Source: Ulota crispa
Taxonomy: Eukaryota; Streptophyta; Bryopsida; Orthotrichales; Orthotrichaceae
Assembly (NCBI GenBank): GCA_963920765.1
Contig: OY987248.1
Coordinates: 1,059,001-1,123,000, forward strand
DNA length: 64,000 nt
Reading direction: 5' to 3'
The notes beneath the pieces were generated by a model. That model did no database searches, had not been told where the DNA came from, and saw only the letters and a program-made list of their open reading frames with translations. Below are positions 18,480-58,760 of this stretch, one piece after another (the stretch's first letter is position 1; each line of letters opens with the position of its first letter). Both the position numbers and the translations under genes were made by a program.

Positions 18480-19460
18480 GGAAGTTCGCTCTTGATATTA
18501 TTCTCTCAGAGTTTTGATTTCTTGAGATTAGTTTAGAAAATAAGAGTAAACAAACTGTTTAGAGGGCGGATCCTGCGACCAGAAGGCGTGCGACCGTCGA
18601 ACGGTCCCGTCCAGCAGTAGCAGCACGCCCCCCGCGCCCGCGCCACCGAAGCCCGCCTCGTTGAAGGGAAAGGGTGAGACGAGAGAGACAGCGCGCGGTC
18701 GGTTGCATGAATCTCCGGAATCTTTCACAGCACATGCGAAGTGAGCTTGCCGGATGATTGCTGGCGCAGCCAGCGGGACCATTATTCTCCAATCCACAAC
18801 GCCCACTCGTCGGTCACGACAATCCCTCAGCATTCCCGCTTTAGCACATTCCACCGGCTAACCTAGTAGAACCTAGTCAACCTACTGATCGACGGCGACA
18901 GACGATTGTTTCCAGTTTCCACTCACGGTGAGTAACCCTAGTCCCTAGCAATCTACAGCTGAAAATAGGCACCGGCACGCCTGGAGCAGGGCCGTCTTTC
19001 AGCCGAGAATGGGCAAACCAGATTCATTCACTCCTGCGTCGTGTAAACCACAGCTCCGCAGAAAGAGAAACCACCGAAACCAACAACCAGGCCAGTTTTA
19101 TCTAACCCTGACCATACTGGAAAGTGATGACGCCACCTCTGACGACGAGCAAGCGCAAGCAAGCAAGCAAGCCCCGCGAGAAGAGCGCGGTGCATGAAGT
19201 GGCCGCAGTCGGGGGTCAACTTGTCGTGGAGCCGAGTGGAGGGCCCCAGGCGTGCCGGGGGGCCACTTCTTCGTAGCTTTGTCAGAACCATCGCCTACTC
19301 TTGATCACCCTACCACCACCCCCAACCATCTCCACGATTTGGCTCGCCGGCTAAGTAAGTTACTCCTTTTCTCCTTCTTTCTTCTCTATGACGTCGCGAG
19401 TGAGGCATGTGACGAGACACAGGCAGGTGTCTCTCGACTCTCGGACGTTATCTCCATATA
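18480..19460 (+). promoter_or_regulatory. GC-rich upstream region of the NSP1-like gene
   Basis: The composition rises sharply and CpG is frequent from about 18560 onwards, as is common around plant gene promoters. Open frames here are short and have no recognisable domains. A strong donor-like CACG|GTGAGT near 18928 leaves open a transcript start further upstream than the one proposed at about 19480. Confidence 0.4.
19451..19458 (+). promoter_or_regulatory. Candidate TATA box
   Basis: CCATATATTC lies in a pyrimidine-rich stretch at the downstream side of the GC-rich region, about 370 bases before the probable donor of the leader exon. This is only a sequence resemblance. Confidence 0.25.
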
Positions 19461-19484
19461 TTCTGTGGTTTTTTGATCGATTGT

Positions 19485-19825
19485 GTCGGCGACTGGCATT
19501 CTGGATTTCTTGTTAGCGTTCTTGTCAGGGCAAAGTCCGACTCGCGTCGTGCTTAGGGATAGCTTTTGTCCATTCCGCCATTCGTTTGTTTATGTTACTT
19601 ATGCAGTAGTGCGCAACGGCAGGGGGGTCATGCAAGGAAGAGGGAAGCGGAGTGAGTATCATCGGCGCTCGTTTGTGCTGCCGCTTCGTGAGGGCGCGAT
19701 CACCTAAACCTCCAACTCCCTCGCCGTTGTCGCCGTCGTCGTTTGCTCTGGTTCCCGTGCGACGCTCGCACTCTGTTCCCCCGCACTGTGCCGTTCTACC
19801 TCGAAACCCTATCCAAAGATTCGCA
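19485..19825 (+). other. Probable 5'-UTR exon of the NSP1-like gene
   Basis: A C/T-rich stretch ends in TTCGCAG|GTACGC, a good plant donor. The matching acceptor is TTTGTTTTTGCAG at 20779-20791, 31 bases before the start codon, giving a leader intron 19826-20791. The exon start is a guess based on the TATA-like motif; transcript data would fix it. Confidence 0.4.
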
Positions 19826-20822
19826 GGTACGCTTGCCGGCATGCATCCATCCATCCATCGCTTGTGCGATGCTCTTCGGAGTGCGCTTCAGATTCTAGCT
19901 CGCAGGCTGATAGGATGGTGGAGAGAGTAGTGCGAACAAGCTCCTCAAGCATTTTCTTCATTTTTTAATGGATTGATTCTTTCTGAGAGCTTAGTATTCT
20001 AGTAGGAGAGCTGGACGAGTGATTGAAATGTGACGAGAGCCCGAATGGCATCTTCAGTGGGAATAAGTCTGAGATTCCGGTCCTTGGTGCCAGGGTTTGT
20101 TGTCTTCGGATTCCTCACGGATGTCTGACTGTCTCGAGAATTGGATCCAAGTAGCGTCTTGTTGTGGAATGCTTTGGTTCACGGATGGATGTCTGCAAGG
20201 AGTTTTGTTAGTTGTAGAGATTTGCAGCAGCATCTTTGGAATGGAGTGCAGAATCTAGGTTAGAGAAAGCCTGTTCCCTCTCTTGTTAGATTCATTCAAA
20301 CCTCTCCAAGGGTTTACTCACAGAAGAAGATGAAGGGTTTGACACTGGATTATTTTGACCCCTTGATCTACCTTGAGTTTTATGGAGTTATTCTTCCTGT
20401 TAAGCTTAATTATTACTCCTTAAACATGAATGCACGTCTGTTTTTGGAAGGACAGAAGTGCCTCTACATGTACTCTGCCATGTGCTTGTAGCTCGGTATG
20501 TGAGAATTATGAAACCTCTTGTGAACACAACCACGAGGATATCAACCAAAAAATTTGCCATTATAGAGTGTGTCGTTTGAATGTGCAATTGTAGAGTGTG
20601 TCATTATAGAGGGTTTAGTGCTTATGTTGTTGCCGTCTACAGAATGCTGGAGTCAGTAGCTCGACGTGCTCGTGTTTGGTTCTATTCATTTACATGGAAA
20701 ATTCTTGTGTTTGAGACCTGAAGGGATGGGAATTCTCCTGTGCAGATGGTACTGAAGTTTTGCATTTAAGAAGCTTAATTTGTTTTTGCAGCTGTTTCCT
20801 AGTGCATCTAAAATCAAAAAGT

Positions 20823-23800
20823 ATGGTTCTAAAACCATGTCCGGACGATGATGGAGTTTCGGAGTTTGACGTCGTTGCGTCCATCATGTTGATCCAGGTG
20901 GGTGTCCTCGGCTTTTGCCTTTCCCTGAGTTCACCAGATTTGTAAAGTTGGCGTGTGTTCGTCGTGAATCTAGTGCCCTAGATTTTGAGAGATTCGAATT
21001 GTGCCAATACAATGAAATTGACGTTTGAAGGTTCCCAGTGCAACTAAAGATTTAGGACGGAAAGTTCTAGATTGAGAAATATAGGGGTTTTAGAGAGGAA
21101 ACCTTGCCACCCACCTTTATTCTGATGGTATTGTTTGGTGGTCTCATGTGTTTTCAGGGGCCACTAGATTTGCGAGAACGATGAGAACGCCCACTGTAAT
21201 GAAGGTGGTTGGAACTATCCATTTTCAAGTGTAATTAAGTTTGCTACATGAGTCATTGGATTTTCCAGGGGGGGACTTTGTTTCGGTACCTTTAAGAATT
21301 CATGTCTTGGAATCATTTTTGCTTTTATTTATTAACTCCTTAGCGTTCAAGCTTGAAAATAGAGAGGTTAGAACTTCACTTTCATTACAAGCTTACAGTC
21401 TATAATAGCAGTTTCTTCAAAACATATTGTTTGTTGTTCGAATATAGAGGGTATGATTTCTCCTTTTCAAATGTACATTTTTCTGACCTAATTTTAGCCA
21501 TTTGGGCACGTATGAGTTCAAAATGTTTGGAGTTAAAGATATATGTCTAAATCCAGGCGCGTGAAAATTTGGCAGGCTCCATCGACGCTGCAGCTCCAAA
21601 TTCTTTGATATTTGGGAGCAACAATAGTTCCAATAATTCCAGAGGAGGGAGCCAGCACTTGACCATGGACATGGGCGGAGGGAATCCCCGCGGATCGGCG
21701 CCATGCTGGCGCTCCCCGTACAGTAACCCAGAGCTGGAATATGTGTATCTGGTACGTTGTACTCACACTCACCCTCTGGTTGCACCAACAAGGTAGAGGA
21801 TAATGTTTATATCACTTAGTGCTACAAACTCTATGATGTTTTGTTCAAACAACTTCGAGCAAACCCACACAGCAATCTAGAGAAGGGTATGGAAATCAAG
21901 AGGCTGAACATTTTATCCAATTTTAGCTTAGATGTGTGCTTATTGAGAGATTAATTCAAGAGTGTGCAAAGATCACTTTGGGATACAAAGCCAAATCCGT
22001 TGCTATCAAATTATTGCGGATGAATATTTTATGCAACCATCTAACACGGTAGGTTGTAGACCATTGTTGATGGGAAGTCAGTAAACCAACTCCGTTTGCT
22101 TTATTCAGTAACTATAAACATTTAGTGAAGTCATGCTTACATCCAACTTGCTAACAGGAAGCTAATCAGTTGTATTGGAAGATTTAAGTTGCTGTCGGTA
22201 TCAGTTAAAAGTCTCCTCTACCTAAACTGATTTCTTTGCTGTGTATTGAATCTCAGGGCTCTCCACAATCATCTCAAGGCTCACCGCAGGTGTCAATGTT
22301 GCAACCTGAGGTTGTCATTCCAAACAATCCTTACGTTCTGCAGGTACAGTACATTGCATCAGGCTTCCCCCATGAGCTGGAATGATTTGGATATATATGT
22401 TCTTATTGTCTCCAGGAAGAGACCGGTCCTGTTGTTTGGTGAAAATGAGACACCTGTTAAAAAGCAATACAAACGTTTTGTGATTCTTTACTCTAGAGAA
22501 TGAAAATTTCAAGTCTAATAGAAACATGTAACATTCTGCGATGTAACATTAGTGGCATTCTAAGGTTGTTGAAGGAGGTTTGCTGAAACTTTCAACGAGT
22601 GAGGGAAAGAAGTATTCTGGTAGCCTTATTTAGTTCTATCTGGGGTAGAGACGCTTGTGGTGTTTTTACTGTGAACGCTTTCCAGAGACTGATTGAGCGT
22701 GTGTGTGTTGCGCAGCCGACAGTAGCAGCAGGCAATGTTTACGATAATCACGGCCAATTCACGTTCGCAGCCGCGGCGGCGGCGCCCGTGGCGAACTGTG
22801 CACCACCATGGTTCATGCCCGTATCAGGAGTCAACCTGCACTCCCCTTCGTCCCACCAAGCATTCGCCCCCCCAAACAATCTCGAATCCCAATCCCAATC
22901 ACAACAATCGCAACCGTTGTATCCATTGCGGGGCGACTCGATGCAGTTTGACGATATCTGGTCCAGCTTGGATTCCGACCTCCTGGACAGGGTCACGTCT
23001 GAAGACATCAGCATGGTGGAAGCGTACGCGCCCCCGGGATTTGATCGATCGCGCCTCACTGTACCGCTGACGAATTACAACAACACGTGGACGATGGACC
23101 CGCAGGCCATACCCGAGGAGGCACAGAGCTGCAATCGCGCTGGCAACACCGCCACGTACGCGCATCCCCAGGAGAGTGGCGGGCAGCATCACTACGGCGA
23201 CGTGATACCCGCGTTTTCTCACGGGATCGCACCGGCAAGCGCGCAAGGGTTCGGAAGCTTGATCTCGGGCCCTCAATTGGACTTCTTGACGGGTGACACC
23301 ATCTCCGAAAGCTTCTCCAGCACCAGCCCCGCTGCCGAGCAGTCGCTCTCGCATGCGCACGTCCATTACGGATTCGGCAACTCAGGCAATGGCAACACAG
23401 GCACCGGGAATCTAGACATTGTGAATCGAGACAACGGGAATCTAGACAATGGGAACCGAGACAGTGGGAATCAAGACAATGGGAGTCGAGGCAATGGGAG
23501 TCGAGACAAAGGGAGTCGAGACAATGGGAACCGAGGCAATGGGAACCGAGACAATGGGAATCGAGATAATGTGAGAGATCCTCGTGCTAGATTGTTGCAG
23601 CAGGAGGGTGATTCCAGGGAGCAGGCGCGGGGTGGTGGTGGTGGTGTTGCAGTGGGTGGGAAGGGGAAATCGGGGGAGGGTGAGTTTGTGGGGAACATGT
23701 TGGCGCCCATACGGTCGCTAGGGGAGCCGCTGTGGGCGGAGCAGCTGCTGAATCTGTGCGCGTCGGCCATAGCTAGCAAGAACATCAGCCGGACGCAGCA

Positions 23801-25180
23801 CCTCATGTGGGTGTTGAACGACTTGGCGTCGGTGGTCGGCGACGCGAATCAGCGATTCGCGGCGTACGGGCTGCGGGCGCTCTTTTGCAGGATCACGGGG
23901 CGCATGGAAGAGGCCGCGGCGACGTTCATGCGGCCGCGGCACCACGACCAGGAGGTGAGTTTTGGCCCGAGAACTGTTCACCGGGCGCTCGTCAAGTTCC
24001 ACGAGTACCTGCCCTGGCACCAGAACTGCTACAGCATCACCAGCCAGACGCTCCTGGAGGTGTGCGCTGGGAAGAGCCGGCTGCACTTCATTGATATTGG
24101 TGTTGGGAAAGGGATCGAGTGGCCCATCTTTATTGACGCGCTCGTGAGCCGCTCCGGCGGCCCGCCCTCCATCCTCCGCATGACCATGGTCCGTGACTTG
24201 CGACGGGAGGAGCTCAACATCGGCACCGCCAAGTCGGTGAACTCCGAAGCGGCGGACTTCCTAACGCGGCTGGTGAAATTCGCTAGCTTGCTGGGCTTGC
24301 ATGTCGAAGTGAACATGGTCCAGAAACCGCTGGAGTGCATCACGCGCGATGATCTCAGAATCCGCGAAGGCGAGGTATGTTTACCCCACCCCACCTGTAA
24401 CCTTAACCCCTACGCCCCTCTATTGTCCTTATTTTTTCGGATCTGTCTGAACTGTGCTTTTTTCTAAGATATGGTTCATCGAATCAGTCATTTTAGAACA
24501 GATCTGTTAGGGACAAAATAACGGCTGGTTAAGAAATGTGCAAGTATCTGACGGAGAGGTTGTTGTGAATGCAACCCCAGGTTCTCGCCGTGGTGTGCCA
24601 GTTCCGGCTCCACCGGCTATCCGAAGAGGTTCTGGCGCGCGAGAGCAACGAGCCGCCGCCGCGGCTCTCCCCCCGCGACGATTTCATGGCGTTTCTGCAC
24701 AAGCTGCAGCCGCACGTCTTCATCCTGAGCGACAACGACAGCGACCATTGCTCGCTGGACTTCCTGACGCGGTTCCAGCACTGCATCAGCTTCTGGTGGC
24801 TGTGCTACGAGGCCATGGACATCAGCTACGCGGGCAAGGACCCCGAGGAGCGGCAGATCATCGAGTACGAGGGCTCCATGATGCTGCTCAACACCGTGGC
24901 CTGCGAGGGCATCGCCCGCATCGAGCGCAACGACTCGTACGAGCACTGGCAGCGCCGCGCCTTGCGCGCGGGCTTCGTCCCACGCGAGCTCAGCGAGGAG
25001 TCTAAGAAAGTGTCACAAAACCTGGTGGCGAGTCACGGCTCGTTCTGGGACGTGGTCTTTATGGGCAGCAACGCCATCAGCCTCCGGTGGCGCAAGCAGC
25101 CCACCACCTTCACCTCCGTCTGGAAGGCGGCGTCCTCCTGCTCCAAGCCCTCCTGCAAATGCAGCATGCTGCACTGCTGA
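20823..25180 (+). CDS. NSP1: NSP1-like GRAS transcription regulator, five coding exons
   Basis: Predicted exons are 20823-20897, 21557-21751, 22257-22343, 22716-24374 and 24581-25180, giving 871 residues. Every intron begins GT, ends AG and is phase 0. The GRAS domain covers roughly residues 457-865: a first leucine-rich region starting EPLWAEQLLNLCASAI, a VHIID-equivalent LHFIDIGVGKGIEWPIF near 575, the segment VVCQFRLHRL at the start of the last exon, and a SAW-like end with LRWRKQPTTFTSVWK. The phrases LAS-VGDAN, SRSGGPPS, ILDIGV-like FIDIGV and the C-terminal W-KGQP/W-RKQP pattern match NSP1 rather than other GRAS branches. In studied plants NSP1 is nuclear and acts with NSP2 to activate symbiosis and strigolactone-biosynthesis genes. 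The protein is much longer than typical NSP1 (about 550) because of its N-terminal half, which is low-complexity and holds an NRDNG repeat. Exon 1 and the exact exon 2 acceptor are the least certain; translation could start in a later exon. Confidence 0.85.
23385..23577 (+). repeat. In-frame 15-bp minisatellite in the NSP1-like gene
   Basis: About a dozen imperfect 15-bp units of the type GAGACAATGGGAATC encode repeats of N/S-R-D/G-N-G at about residues 343-407. Because the unit is a multiple of three, copy-number change would keep the frame. The segment is predicted to be disordered and lies before the GRAS domain. Confidence 0.9.
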
Positions 25181-25181
25181 A

Positions 25182-25469
25182 GGGCATCTCCACCGGTGGC
25201 TCAAACACGCCAAGTGTTGAGGCCCCCTCTCAAAACCCTGTCAAGACACTTTGTCCTACCGTGTCAAGTAAGGGCCCTTCAAGACACTCATCTATTCATC
25301 CTAAGTTAAGTGAACTTTGTCCTCTACTTTCCTTGATAAGTGGTCAACTGATTATTTATGGGGCGTGTTAGAGTGCAAGGTTACCTTTTTGAAGAGCATA
25401 GGTGGAGATCAAGCCGGCCAGCCAAAACAGATGGAAACTCTGAAAGAGCCCAGACCGATGGAGATGCTA
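25182..25469. mobile_element. GAGCATC-type MITE in the 3' UTR of the NSP1-like gene
   Basis: The left end GGGCATCTCCACCGGTGGCT resembles the reversed right end TAGCATCTCCATCGGTCTGG and the reversed right end of 61323-62789 (GAGCATCTCCACCGGTGCCT). The element starts one base after the stop codon. No clear 3-bp duplication remains. Confidence 0.6.
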
Positions 25470-52729: not shown

Positions 52730-54300
52730 ATGGGAGACAGTAACAAGGCTTTCGGCGCCAATACCGGTGGTGCCGGTGGAGCTGATTTGCCTCGAGAGGT
52801 TCCAAGCGCCACTACCAGAAGTGTTGGTGGACCTCAGATGCCAATGGAGGATCTCCTAGGAGCATTGGCCATATTCATGGAGCAACATCGAGCCAACCAG
52901 GGTGGTCAAGTAGCCACCGAGGCGTTGAAAGCTGTTGTTGTGAAGACCGGTAGGTTTGACGGCAAGAACATAACGAAGTTTTTGCGAGCCTATGTTTGCG
53001 AGATGGAGGTGCATCAAGTTGATGAAAATCAAATGATGGCTACCTTCGACATGGCAGTTGTGCCTGACATTCGTGACCGTGTGCGAGAGATCCGCGAAGG
53101 AGTTCACACTTGGATTGCCTTTGCTGAGCGTCTACGTGACGAGTACTTTGACGAGGACACGGAAAGGATGACCAGAAGATCTTTTCTAGAATGGGTGGAG
53201 CAGCGGCCAAGAGACAACATGGGTGCTCATGAGCTGCTGAAGGCCTTTGAGAAGAAATTTTCTCAGTTACCCATGATTGAGAGACGCCTCCTCAACACCA
53301 GGAAGGCAGAGCTTTTCCTTCAAGCAGCTGATGCTGCATTGGAGGATAGACTTCTTCTACTTCTTGGAGATTGTACCACAGAAGGTGGTTTTACCACCGA
53401 TTGGAGAAAGGTGGAAGAGACCGTGACCTTGTTGGCCAAACAACAATGTGTGAGGTCAAGAGGATTTGGAGCAGGAGTAGACACTAATCTAATTTCAGCT
53501 CCAAAAAGTCCCAAAGTATCTTTTGCACCATCATCATCAACAACTCCAGGGTCTATCTTGAAGACCACCAAAACCAACGAAGGTAATGCTCTTGAAGAAC
53601 TCATCAAGAGTTTCAAAGAGCTGAAGGTGGAGTTTATTGAGTTGAGGAAGTCTCAGGCATCTGGCTCTTCTTCATCGTCACAGCCATCTGATGGAGGGAG
53701 GACACTTCCTTGGAGATGTATATGGTGTGACAAGAGCGAACAAGATGGCAAGCATTGCCTTCGAGACTGTACAGAGTGCGACGAGGCCTTGAAAGATGGC
53801 ATCGTTGAATTTATTGACGGCAAGCTTCATGATTCATCCACAAAGACACCATTGAAAACCAACTTTGGCAGAGGAGGGATGAAAAAACTTATGGAGGGAA
53901 AGATGGGACGATCTAGTTCCATACATGTACGTGAAGCTGATTCATACCACATTGAAGTGGAGCAGCACTCAATTGGAGCTTCACCCATTCAAAGAGCCAC
54001 ACTAATGAAACGAGGAGCCCAAGCCATCAGAAATGTAACTAGATGGGAAGACCCGATTGATGCAAGCAGCATCAAAGCATTTTTGGAGAGAGATCAAGCC
54101 AATGTTGATCACTATGAGGCCTCAATTGAAGAGAAGCGTGGAAGAGTTGAAGCCGAAGATGGTGAAGAGCCTTCATCAAAGAAGAGGGCTCAAGCGCAGA
54201 AAGATTCTGCAAATGAGTCGAGGTGCAGAGTACAAACGCGCTCAAAAACACAAAGCCCAAACTTTGTGCACCCTGAGGATGATTTGCTTCCTGATAAAGA
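52730..54300 (+). mobile_element. gag region of the Ty3/gypsy element
   Basis: The N-terminal part has a capsid-like helical segment with RFDGKNITKFLRAY and IEERLL-like leucine-rich stretches, as in retrotransposon gag proteins. A CCHC-like knuckle with CIWCDKSEQDGKHC lies near 53.73 kb. Downstream is a charged linker rich in K, E and S. Confidence 0.75.
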
Positions 54301-54849
54301 CTGGGGGCAGTCTAGCGGTAGCGGAAGAGGCTATGAAAAAGAAGATTCTGGCAAACCAAAGGGGAAGAGCTTTGCTTACAAGCTCCAGTCCGATATTGAG
54401 ACTTCCATTGATATGAAGGGAGTATTGGAGGAGAGGATCTTGGATGCCAAGATCGAGTTCACATTGAGGGAAGCACTTGGCATAGCCAAGAAAGACTTCC
54501 ATGAGCTGATCATCGACATCATCAAGCGAAAGAGACAGATGACAGCGGAGACTGTGATGGTGAGTGCTTTGGACACTCACATGACCATCGATGAAGAGAT
54601 TGAGATTGGCGAAGTTTTTGCCATGATGGGAGACCATGAGGCTCATTGCAATGAAATTACACTCACGGAGGTGGCAAGAAAAGAGCCAGAGAGGGTGCTT
54701 TGCTCAAATAGAAAGGCTAATGAGACAAAGGTTCAGATATCTGATGATGGAGTATCAAAAGTTGAAGCTAAGACCTTTGAGTTCACTTGTGATCATTCCA
54801 CTGATAGACCTCATGATGTCGAGACTGAGTTTCAGCAACCATATTGGGC

Positions 54850-55230
54850 TAAAGCCACCACTGAGATAAGAGTGAAGCTTGGTGGGATGGATGAGTCTGT
54901 TTTGGCCCTTGTAGATCATGGTTCAGAGATCAACATCATATCTCGCAAGACCTATGAGAAGGGCAAATGGCCAATTCACACAAACCATGGCTGGGTGATG
55001 AGAGCAGCTAACAATGGGCGCAGTTCATTGTATGGAGCTTGCCCTTCAGTGCCAGCAAAGATTGGAGATGTGGAGGTTGAGCAGAATTTCTTTGTTCAGA
55101 ACACTGGGGCATATCCAGTGCTTCTGGGCCAACCTTTCATCACTGCCTCACGCATGGAGACCAAAGTATTGGATGATGGATCTCACTATGCTCGAATTCG
55201 AAGTATAGATGGGAAGAAGTCAGTGCAGTT
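54850..55230 (+). mobile_element. Aspartic protease domain of the Ty3/gypsy element
   Basis: LALVDHGSEINIISRKTYEK gives the retropepsin catalytic D-x-G followed by the hydrophobic strand. The later YPVLLGQPFI matches the family's second conserved segment (LLGxPF). It lies between gag and RT as expected. Confidence 0.85.
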
Positions 55231-56069
55231 CTTAACTGTAAGAGCTGACAACGAGAGGCACCGAATGCAACTCAGAGAAGTATCTTTGCCGACTTCTCTG
55301 AACTTTCCAGATTTCTAGAAGGCACATGTGGGATGTGGGGATCCACGGGTGCCAAGGATATCAATACTAGAAAATTCCCCAATATACATACTGCTTTCAA
55401 GTGTGGATTTTTGAGCGTGACAAAGTGTGGATTTGCGAGTTTCATGGATGCCAAAGACTTGGACCATATACATAGGAGATTTATCAAAAAGAAAGAGAAA
55501 AACCTAAAAAAAATGAAGGTTCTTGAAGAAGATGAGAGCATTACTGGTATGTATGAAGAAAGTGGCATGCCAGATGATATCTTGCATACTTTGCAAGATT
55601 TGAAGACAAATAAGGGTGCAGAGCCGACTACTCATTGTCTTATTGATGTCCATACAGCTGCGATGCATCATGAAATTTCTACAGCAATGGCAAAGCTGTG
55701 TTCTTCCAACATCGATGGACATAGACTTGAAGCTGCAGTATATACCAAGTACAAGACTGTGAACAAGAAGGTGAAGCCAGTGGCTACTCAGCTACCATTT
55801 GACACTGATGATTACATCAAACAAGCTGAGAAAGAGCCAAGTTTGAGAGAGTCAAGGAGAATTGGACATAAATTCACCAAAGAGACTCTAGCTAACCTCA
55901 AGATTGGAGGAGATGATTTTCTGACTGAGCCAGAGAGAAAGAAATTTCAAGACATGCTTTTGATGCATGGAAAGGCTTTTGCTTCTTCTTCAGATGAGAT
56001 TGGGTGTGTGCAGCCAAGTGTTGTAGCACCAATGGTCATATTCACAATACCACATATACCATGGGATTT

Positions 56070-56730
56070 GAAGCCTATTCCAGTGCCTAGAGCTCTACTG
56101 CCGAAATTAGTGGAGTTGCTCAAAGAAAAGACGCGCATGGGTATATTAGAGCCTTCAATGGCTCCATATTCAAACCGTTGGTTTACTGTGCCAAAGAAGT
56201 CAGGAGCATTGAGATTCATTCAAGATATGCAGCCTGCAAACAAAGTTACAATCAGAAACAAAGGATCAGGCCCTGTTGTGGACGAAGTGGCGGAGGCATT
56301 TGCTGGACATGCAATCTATTCCATTGGAGATCTATACTCTGGTTATGATCAATTCCAACTTGCTGCTCAAAGCAGGGATTTGACGACTATGAAGACTCCT
56401 CTTGGATTGGTGCGTATGTACACATTGCCTCAAGGCGCTACTAATTCAGTGGCACACATGCAAAGCGCTATGAATCAAATTCTAAGAGACTTTGTGCCAG
56501 AGAAAACCATACCTTTTGTGGATGATATCCCAATAAAAGGATGCGAGGAGAATCAAAGAGACTTGACGGTTCAGAGTGATGGTTGCCGAGCCTTTGTGAG
56601 CAACCATATCCATGACGTGGCTCAAATCTTGGGCAGACTTGAGGAGGTGAATTTGACTCTATCCATTGATAAGTCAAAATTTGGGGTGAATGAAATTGTG
56701 GTGGTTGGTCACTTGTGTGGCTCTTATGGA
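56070..56730 (+). mobile_element. Reverse transcriptase domain of the Ty3/gypsy element
   Basis: Visible motifs in order are GILEPS, FTVPKKSGALRFIQDMQPAN, SIGDLYSGYDQFQL, TPLGLVRMYTLPQGATNS and the catalytic FVDDI. The sequence resembles Ty3/gypsy RTs reported from fungi and early land plants more than the common angiosperm clades, by memory only. Confidence 0.9.
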
Positions 56731-56989
56731 AGAAAACCTGACCCTGAAAAGGTTGATGCTATTGGAAGAATGAAAGCCTGTAGCAATATCACCGAAGTAA
56801 AGAGATTTCTTGGAGCTTGTGTCTTCTACCACATATGGATTCTCCATTTTGCTCATATAACAGAGCCTCTCTACAAATTATTGCGTAAGAGAACCAAATT
56901 CATTTGGGAAAATGAGCAAAACTTGGCTATGGAAGAGTTGAAGAGGATTTTGGAGTCGCCACCAGTTCTCAAACAAGTGAACTATGATT

Positions 56990-57370
56990 GCAAGAGGCCG
57001 GTGATCGTGACTGTTGACACAAGTCCAATTGCCATAGGTTGGGCTATTGGACAAGATGATGAGGAAGGCAAAAGATTTGCTATTTGATTTGGAGCAAGGA
57101 TCTTGACAGAGCGTCAGAGAGCATATCCACAGGTGAAAAGAGAACTATGGGGTGCTCTTACAGCTCTGAAGGCAGATAGAAACTACCTTATTGGAGCGGA
57201 GATGGTACTGGAGACTGATTGCTTACCTTTGCTGAGGATGATAGCAAATTGTTCTTCACCAGATATTGCAATACTTCGATGGATTGCCTACATCAAATCT
57301 ATGAATCCGGTTCTAATACATATTGAAGGCAAAAAGAATTCTGTTGCCGATATGTTGTCTAGAGCAAGAT
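56990..57370 (+). mobile_element. RNase H domain of the Ty3/gypsy element
   Basis: VIVTVDTSPIAIGWAIGQ supplies the first catalytic aspartate region. QVKRELWGALTALK and LETDCLPLL follow, and the domain ends with IHIEGKKNSVADMLSR, the usual NxxADxLSR-like signature. Confidence 0.85.
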
Positions 57371-57639
57371 ATTCTAATGAAGATGAGATGATGGGCCACG
57401 AAGATGTCGAAGATTTATTGCATGGAGGCTATGTGGTGACTATTGATGCTGAGAACTCATCCATCGATGCTTTGCCATTCAAAGTTGAGTTCTATGAAGG
57501 GAAATTGAGAGACATTGGGCTATATTTGAACACAATGAAGCTGCAAGAAGGTTGGACAGACAAAACATTCAACGACATCAGGCATCAATCCTATGGATAT
57601 CTTTTGAGAGAAGGATTTCTATGGAAGAGGGCAAAAAGA

Positions 57640-58760
57640 GGTGATGAAGTACCATTGAGAGTGGTGGGGGACTCTAAGACCAAAGCTGAAGTTCTCAAGG
57701 AGTTCCATGATACACTTTGGGCAGGTCACAGAGGTGTATGGGCCACTTACACAAAAATCAAGGAGAGGTACTGGTGGAAAGGACTTTACAAAGACGTTGA
57801 AGAGTTTGTAGTTTCTTGTGTGGTGTGCCAACTGCAATCTAAGGTGCGCCACAAAGATGAGTTACATCCTACTTACCCTCTAGCAATCCATTTTCAGTGG
57901 ATGATAGACTTGGTAGCCATGCCAAATGCTATGTGGGGAATGAAGTACCTTGTTTTGGCACGAGAGGAGCTCTCAAACTTTGTTGAGGGCAGAGCCTTGA
58001 GGACTAAGGCTACCAAAAATGTATGCCGATTTATACTCGAAGACATCTTCAGTCGTTATGGCAGCATTGGCCGAATGAGAGCTGACAGAGGGGAACTAAA
58101 TGCCACTGAAGCCAAAGAGTTCTTCAAACGTTATGGTGTGCAGTTGAAGCTGACGACGGCTTACAATCCTGAAGCTAATGGCAAGATTGAGAGAGAGCAT
58201 CCTCCGATCATTCATGCTTTGGTTACAGCTTGTAAAGGCAAACCAAATATGTGGCCAAAACTATTACCATTTGCTTTGTGGGCCGATAGAACTACGCACA
58301 GTACAGTTACTGGTTACATGCCTGTGGAACTTGTGTATGGGCAGAAATCGATTATGCCAACAAAGGAAGATATTCCTACATGGGTGTTTCTCTCATGGGA
58401 GGACGGTATAAGCAGAGAAAGACTGTTGGAACTTCGCATTCAGCAGCTTGGAAGGTTGTCAAGCGACCTTGATATTGCATTGGAGAAGATGAAGACAGCG
58501 AGGCTCAGCAACAAAGAAAGATTTGATAAGACACACAGATTAAGGACCAAGCAGATCAAAGAGGGTGATTGAGTCCTAGTATTTGACAGTACATTGGAGC
58601 ATCAGCATAGTACAGTACGCAAATTTGCTAAGAGATGGTTTGGACCCTATGTTGTGATGAAAGTGCACACCAACAGCACTTATTCACTTAAGGTATTGGA
58701 TGGGACTTCTTTGCGCGTACCTGTTGCTGGTAAACGAATCAAAGCTTTTCGAAGGAGTGG
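57640..58760 (+). mobile_element. Integrase domain of the Ty3/gypsy element
   Basis: An HHCC zinc-binding segment (H-x4-GHRG ... CVVCQ) lies at 57.7-57.84 kb. The catalytic core shows IDLVAM, RADRGE and NGKIERE as the D, D and E positions. A GPY/F-like RWFGPYVV lies in the C-terminal part. No chromodomain is recognisable after it; the tail is acidic. Confidence 0.85.

Follow-up and report, generated by a model that had tools for sequence, protein, structure and literature searches.

The 64,000-nucleotide stretch of DNA analysed here (the window) carries on its plus strand a GRAS gene whose five-exon model can be read directly from the sequence and encodes 871 amino acids with no internal stops (Table 1). 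All four introns begin with GT and end with AG, and each exon length in the model is divisible by three. GRAS is the sole Pfam family in the protein, at residues 461–854 (E 4.7e-73), and this match covers positions 2–374 of the 374-position PF03514 profile, a full-length domain that makes the protein a member of the GRAS family; the half encoded by exon 4 corresponds to profile positions 2–201. If the model is right, about 460 residues precede the domain, which agrees with the some 450 residues given in an earlier reading made from the sequence alone. Part of this length is accounted for by the tandem array in exon 4 (period 15, 11.1 copies, 83% matches in Tandem Repeats Finder), which encodes G-N-R-D-N-like repeats. 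Exon 4 of the paralog on contig C9 (L024) carries a different repetitive stretch, rich in P, A, Q and H as judged by eye, and the two N-termini seem, from these repeats, to expand independently.

Table 1. Features of the GRAS gene in the window (positions counted from the first base of the window).
Feature	Position	Strand	Remarks
Predicted 5' leader intron	19827..20791	+	From splice-profile scores; absent from the model of the sequence-only reading
Exon 1	20823..20897	+	25 aa; putative start MVLKPCPDDDGVSEFDVVASIMLIQ; open frame, coding status unproven
Exon 2	21557..21751	+	65 aa; peptide resembles C9 exon 2
Alternative in-frame ATG in exon 2	21665..21667	+	Context ACCATGG
Exon 3	22257..22343	+	29 aa; phase 0 at both ends
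Exon 4	22716..24374	+	Low-complexity N-terminal part, then first GRAS half
15-bp tandem array	23406..23571	+	In frame, in exon 4; Tandem Repeats Finder
Intron 4	24375..24580	+	Phase 0, within the GRAS domain; same site in C9 and C8
Exon 5	24581..25180	+	Second GRAS half, C-terminal tail, stop
Cys/His tail CSKPSCKCSMLHC	25139..25177	+	Common to the three NSP1 copies

Three comparisons assign the domain to NSP1. Among all PDB sequences, the best match of the GRAS part is 9x2r_A (E 5.8e-58), a chain that we take to be Medicago NSP1, its partner chain matching Medicago NSP2; SHR (8.6e-41) and DELLA (1.5e-26) follow, and NSP2 comes last of 15 (3.4e-07). Conversely, when the solved NSP1 was searched against the 275-Mb assembly of 157 contigs, which holds at least 28 GRAS loci, the top three genes were the window gene (C7) and genes at C8:10.58 Mb and C9:4.30 Mb, with best pieces of 126.2, 122.2 and 116.7 bits, respectively, against 85.5 for the next gene. 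The best match is therefore reciprocal, with C7, C8 and C9 as co-orthologs, the PDB direction referring to C7 only. Our tree comprised 33 rows, namely 27 GRAS domains of this genome (one of two loci with identical domains being left out of the 28) and six solved references (one NSP1, NSP2, AtSHR, AtSCR, DELLA and AtSCL3; SCL32 was not among them), and the bootstrap for it had not fully converged (correlation 0.989). NSP1, C7, C8 and C9 form one group in this tree (100/99), separate from SHR, SCR, DELLA, SCL3 and NSP2, with C7 sister to C9 (100/99) and C8 outside, while AtSHR, AtSCR, DELLA and AtSCL3 each pair with genes of this genome at 100/99 or 100/100. The best PDB match, the reverse search and the tree thus concur with the NSP1-like label of the sequence-only reading, and a GRAS family tree, the kind of check that it had proposed, placed the domain with the one known NSP1 included.

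SHR is the second-best solved match of the gene, and NSP1, SHR and a third group of genes from this genome adjoin in the tree; angiosperm NSP1, SHR and SCL32 also lie together in the GRAS tree according to PMC5332381. The window gene could on these grounds belong to SHR or a related adjoining group and merely resemble NSP1. However, the genome has SHR-like genes of its own (C3:17.77 and C1:36.67), which join AtSHR at 100/99, and the three genes of the third group likewise stand apart (100/100). The branches are adjacent, yet these neighbours form groups of their own in this genome and their introns lie at other positions of the domain, whereas the window gene sits with NSP1 at 100/99. We therefore regard an origin in the SHR neighbourhood as highly improbable and treat the gene as an NSP1.

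Within the NSP1 group, the GRAS domains of C7 and C9 share an identity of 0.709, with dN 0.216 and a high dS of 1.13 (ratio about 0.19), and those of C7 and C8 an identity of 0.568, with synonymous sites at or near saturation. The GRAS domain encoded by exons 4 and 5 is under constraint, beyond what chance would give. The plastid contig of the assembly (C157, 112.5 kb) carries psaA and psaB; its PsaA and 8htu_A disagree at nine of 750 positions, counted by eye, and PsaB has the same leading PDB entries. We take 8htu and 6l35 to be photosystem I of Physcomitrium, and by these two conserved plastid proteins the host is probably a moss. The topology C8,(C7,C9), as drawn from a tree that held no named moss NSP1 to anchor clade names, would fit the two clades published for moss NSP1, the duplicated clade I and clade II, and that report (PMC6232258) describes expanded NSP1 in crown mosses, typically with four copies. 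Like those clades, this genome has several paralogs, one duplicated pair and no clear NSP2, although we found three copies rather than four.

The sequence-only reading called the five-exon structure unusual, and this stands with respect to angiosperms and falls within the genome itself. Angiosperm GRAS genes are almost all mono-exonic, as stated in PMC5332381 (not there for NSP1 in particular), and PMC5612761 gives 52 of 59 Medicago GRAS genes (88%) as intronless. Here, by contrast, the GRAS domain lies in two or more pieces at 18 of 28 loci, and C9, the nearest paralog, has a similar layout of exons 2-3-4-5; GRAS genes here commonly carry introns, and the window gene does not stand alone in this. 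Four phase-0 introns are not striking either, because 22 of the 35 modelled GRAS-domain introns are in phase 0 (11 are in phase 1 and 2 in phase 2), a proportion from which four in four would arise with a chance of about 0.16, 21 of the 35 introns coming from one seven-gene group and hence not being independent. The window gene is an ordinary member of its family, with a gene model that is partly supported. The greater length of its N-terminus, which had been set against the shorter angiosperm NSP1 genes, is borne out against the one solved chain: 9x2r_A has 554 residues, the match spans its residues 166–549, and about 165 residues precede the domain there, compared with about 460 here.

C7, C8 and C9 all have intron 4 in phase 0 at one and the same residue, and its position matches no clear break of any other GRAS gene among the 28 loci. 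As an intron common to three copies of a gene whose family is mostly intronless in angiosperms, it could serve to date the gain or loss of introns in NSP1, which depends on comparison with the genes of liverworts, hornworts and ferns. Among the literature matches listed, titles and the beginnings of abstracts do not treat the exon structure of moss NSP1, from which it cannot be claimed that this structure is unpublished; the name PpNSP1 gave no literature match, and no paper on an NSP1–NSP2 structure was among the matches listed.

The exons upstream of the domain differ in how well they can be traced in the paralogs and in their splice sites. We scored splice sites with a profile trained on only 27 introns from other GRAS genes of the genome, 8 of the 35 having been kept out because they fell short of the margin or belonged to the NSP1 paralogs, and ranked them among the 373 GTs and 378 AGs of positions 19300–25200. 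The four model donors fall within the top 0.5–1.6% of the GTs, and the acceptors of introns 1 to 4 within the top 28, 13.8, 24.1 and 5.8% of the AGs; the acceptors of C9 exons 2, 3, 4 and 5 rank at 29.2, 0.6, 20.8 and 11.7%. When window positions 19301–22720 were compared in translation with C9 (L024, 2501–5700) and C8 (L025, 3001–5700), exon 2 alone was clear of chance, scoring 67 against 40 for reversed C9, with the other listed C9 scores at 37–44. DNA comparison outside the GRAS exons gave nothing better than E 0.02 among the best 10 of 36 and the best 10 of 25 matches.

As a peptide, exon 2 scores 66 against C9 exon 2, which ends at an equivalent donor, and 0 of 3000 shuffles did as well; this similarity comes from the 3' half (0 of 3000) and not from the 5' half, which 150 of 3000 equalled. 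The C9 counterpart of exon 3 is a 78-bp exon that starts with GS and ends in Q before the gt, and shuffles were as good in 74 of 3000 global and 2774 of 3000 local alignments, so that the likeness consists mostly of position and ends and supports this exon weakly. Further downstream, the alignable N-terminal part of exon 4 scores 65 against C9 (1 of 300 shuffles as good; 12 of 1000 for its first 90 residues alone). The N-terminal part of C8 has no such similarity, being equalled by 217 of 300 shuffles in the comparison with C7 and by 235 of 300 in that with C9, and we read the coding part of this copy as two exons. Extra upstream exons are imaginable in C9 and found no sequence support in the comparison with window positions 19301–22720. 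The model is thus well supported in exons 4 and 5 and, within exon 2, in the 3' half, but weakly in exon 3 and poorly in exon 1.

Exon 1 found no above-chance match in either C9 or C8 when the leader and N-terminal region were compared in translation, and a stretch including part of it did no better than chance against C9 exon 3 (score 41). C9 exon 2 has 196 bases, a multiple of three plus one, and starts with one extra base, so that its incoming intron would be in phase 2 if the acceptor is correctly chosen. Since exon 1 is without a counterpart, the acceptor of intron 1 is weak and the intron before C9 exon 2 differs in phase on this model, the start codon and the statement that all introns are in phase 0 are unproven; the earlier five-exon, four-intron model reads as it was described and is secure from exon 2 onwards only to the degree set out above. 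Translation might instead begin at ATG 21665 in exon 2, or in another first exon, with exon 1 as untranslated leader and with fewer or different coding exons; from ATG 21665 the protein would be 61 residues shorter. The similarity to C9 is solid past this ATG and weak before it, it stands in an ACCATGG context, and the acceptor at 21557 scores 0.0, while the one at 21576 scores better (5.3) and would not keep the frame of exon 1. Against a start in exon 2, the reading frame of exon 1 begins with an ATG, stays open and runs on into that of exon 2, and the exon ends at the second-best donor within 19300–21560, which ranks in the top 1.3% of the 373 GTs; also, the profile by which the acceptors appear weak has few training introns behind it. 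We consider a start downstream of exon 1 a serious contender that falls somewhat short of an even chance.

Upstream of exon 1, a 5' leader intron is likely. Its predicted donor, CAG/GTACGC (19826), is in the top 0.3% of the 373 GTs, and its acceptor, TTTTTGCAG/CTG (20792), in the top 0.8% of the 378 AGs; the acceptor at 20746 is an alternative with a marginally better score (9.8 compared with 8.8).

The sequence-only reading had also noted that exons 2 and 3 could be skipped without loss of frame, and this arithmetic holds if the model is right, both exons being divisible by three with phase-0 ends. Alternative skipping would yield isoforms with different N-termini, and the weak acceptors of exons 2 and 4, which recur in both paralogs (top 28% and 24% in C7, 29% and 21% in C9), would be in keeping with it. 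The donor of exon 2 ranks in the top 0.5%. However, exons flanked by phase-0 introns are symmetrical in any case, and such introns are frequent among the GRAS genes here (22 of 35), C9 exon 2 is asymmetrical if its model is right, and the acceptor ranks come from a profile of 27 introns. We therefore think such skipping unlikely.

What the protein does is a separate matter, and its description as a symbiosis regulator is doubtful for what is probably a moss host. Physcomitrella is reported to lack NSP2, RAM1 and RAD1 by loss (PMC6232258). In the present genome the best NSP2 match is at C3:9387737 (228 bits, 42%), the one candidate among 38 matching pieces that was taken through a reverse test; the PDB search ranked NSP2 11th of 15 for it, behind SCL3, DELLA and SCR, and we rejected it. 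The NSP2 reference pairs with no gene of this genome in the 33-row tree, and these searches of the assembly found no convincing NSP2. D27 and carotenoid-cleavage genes are present at the family level, at which CCD7 and CCD8 are not separated.

Given that no clear NSP2 was found, the D27 and carotenoid-cleavage families and the losses reported for Physcomitrella, an NSP2-independent co-regulator is the most likely role. The protein would act in the nucleus as a transcriptional co-regulator that uses its GRAS domain to pair with other members of the family, the long low-complexity N-terminus serving as a loosely constrained regulatory tail. Without a clear NSP2 as partner, homodimers or heterodimers of NSP1 would be the most likely mode of action, and the processes regulated may be strigolactone or nutrient responses rather than mycorrhiza. 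Taken together, we consider it probable that the locus is an intron-bearing moss NSP1 of the GRAS family and one of three paralogs, with this NSP2-free role included. Several points speak against so complete a reading: exon 1 and the start codon are unproven, nothing beyond the GRAS domain ties the gene to known NSP1 function, the tree contains a single NSP1 from outside, the dS values are high or saturated, the moss identity draws on two plastid proteins, and the 3 kb upstream hold no P1BS phosphate element, of which only about 0.6 would be expected by chance. An intact and constrained NSP1 in such a plant offers a handle on the role of NSP1 apart from symbiosis, a value that comes from the reported multiplication of NSP1 in crown mosses and the reported loss of NSP2 in Physcomitrella.

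All three copies end in a Cys/His tail after the last GRAS Trp motif, with the pattern C-S-[KR]-x2-C-K-C-[SN]-[ML]-L-H (C-x4-C-x-C-x3-H). C7 shares 11 of the last 13 residues with C9 and 7 with C8, a conservation that about equals the domain identities. One pattern scan found the motif in none of the other 25 GRAS loci of the genome, and the solved NSP1 has only 5 residues past the match and no Cys/His tail. Conceivably the tail binds metal, has a redox function or carries a lipid, and thereby allows dimers of moss NSP1 to dispense with NSP2, combined with a lineage-specific set of skippable N-terminal exons; we regard this combination as a long shot.

Several further GRAS loci deserve mention in their own right. 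Target sites of miR171 are a hallmark of HAM genes, and a GRAS gene at C11:2.04 Mb (L008) matches the miR171 target site perfectly at position 1563 on the plus strand, a site that the window gene does not have. Seven genes (L036–L042) share a four-piece domain layout and form a group of their own (100/100) with no solved reference within it; by this grouping they would represent a lineage expansion. At L027 (C5:16.84 Mb), one of the 18 loci with a split domain, a gap of about 15 bases with unconvincing splice sites separates two pieces of the domain that are in different frames, possibly a frameshift or a pseudogene. Two GRAS genes about 9 kb apart on C2 (15289761–15290870 on the plus and 15300149–15301258 on the minus strand) have identical domain translations, while their 4,110-base loci differ, and we read them as a recent inverted duplication. 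Elsewhere in the window, three long frames at 52730–58572 on the plus strand represent a retrotransposon, whose domain order makes it probably Gypsy-like; two of them contain reverse transcriptase, RNase H and integrase zinc-binding domains above the Pfam cut-off, with the integrase core just below it.
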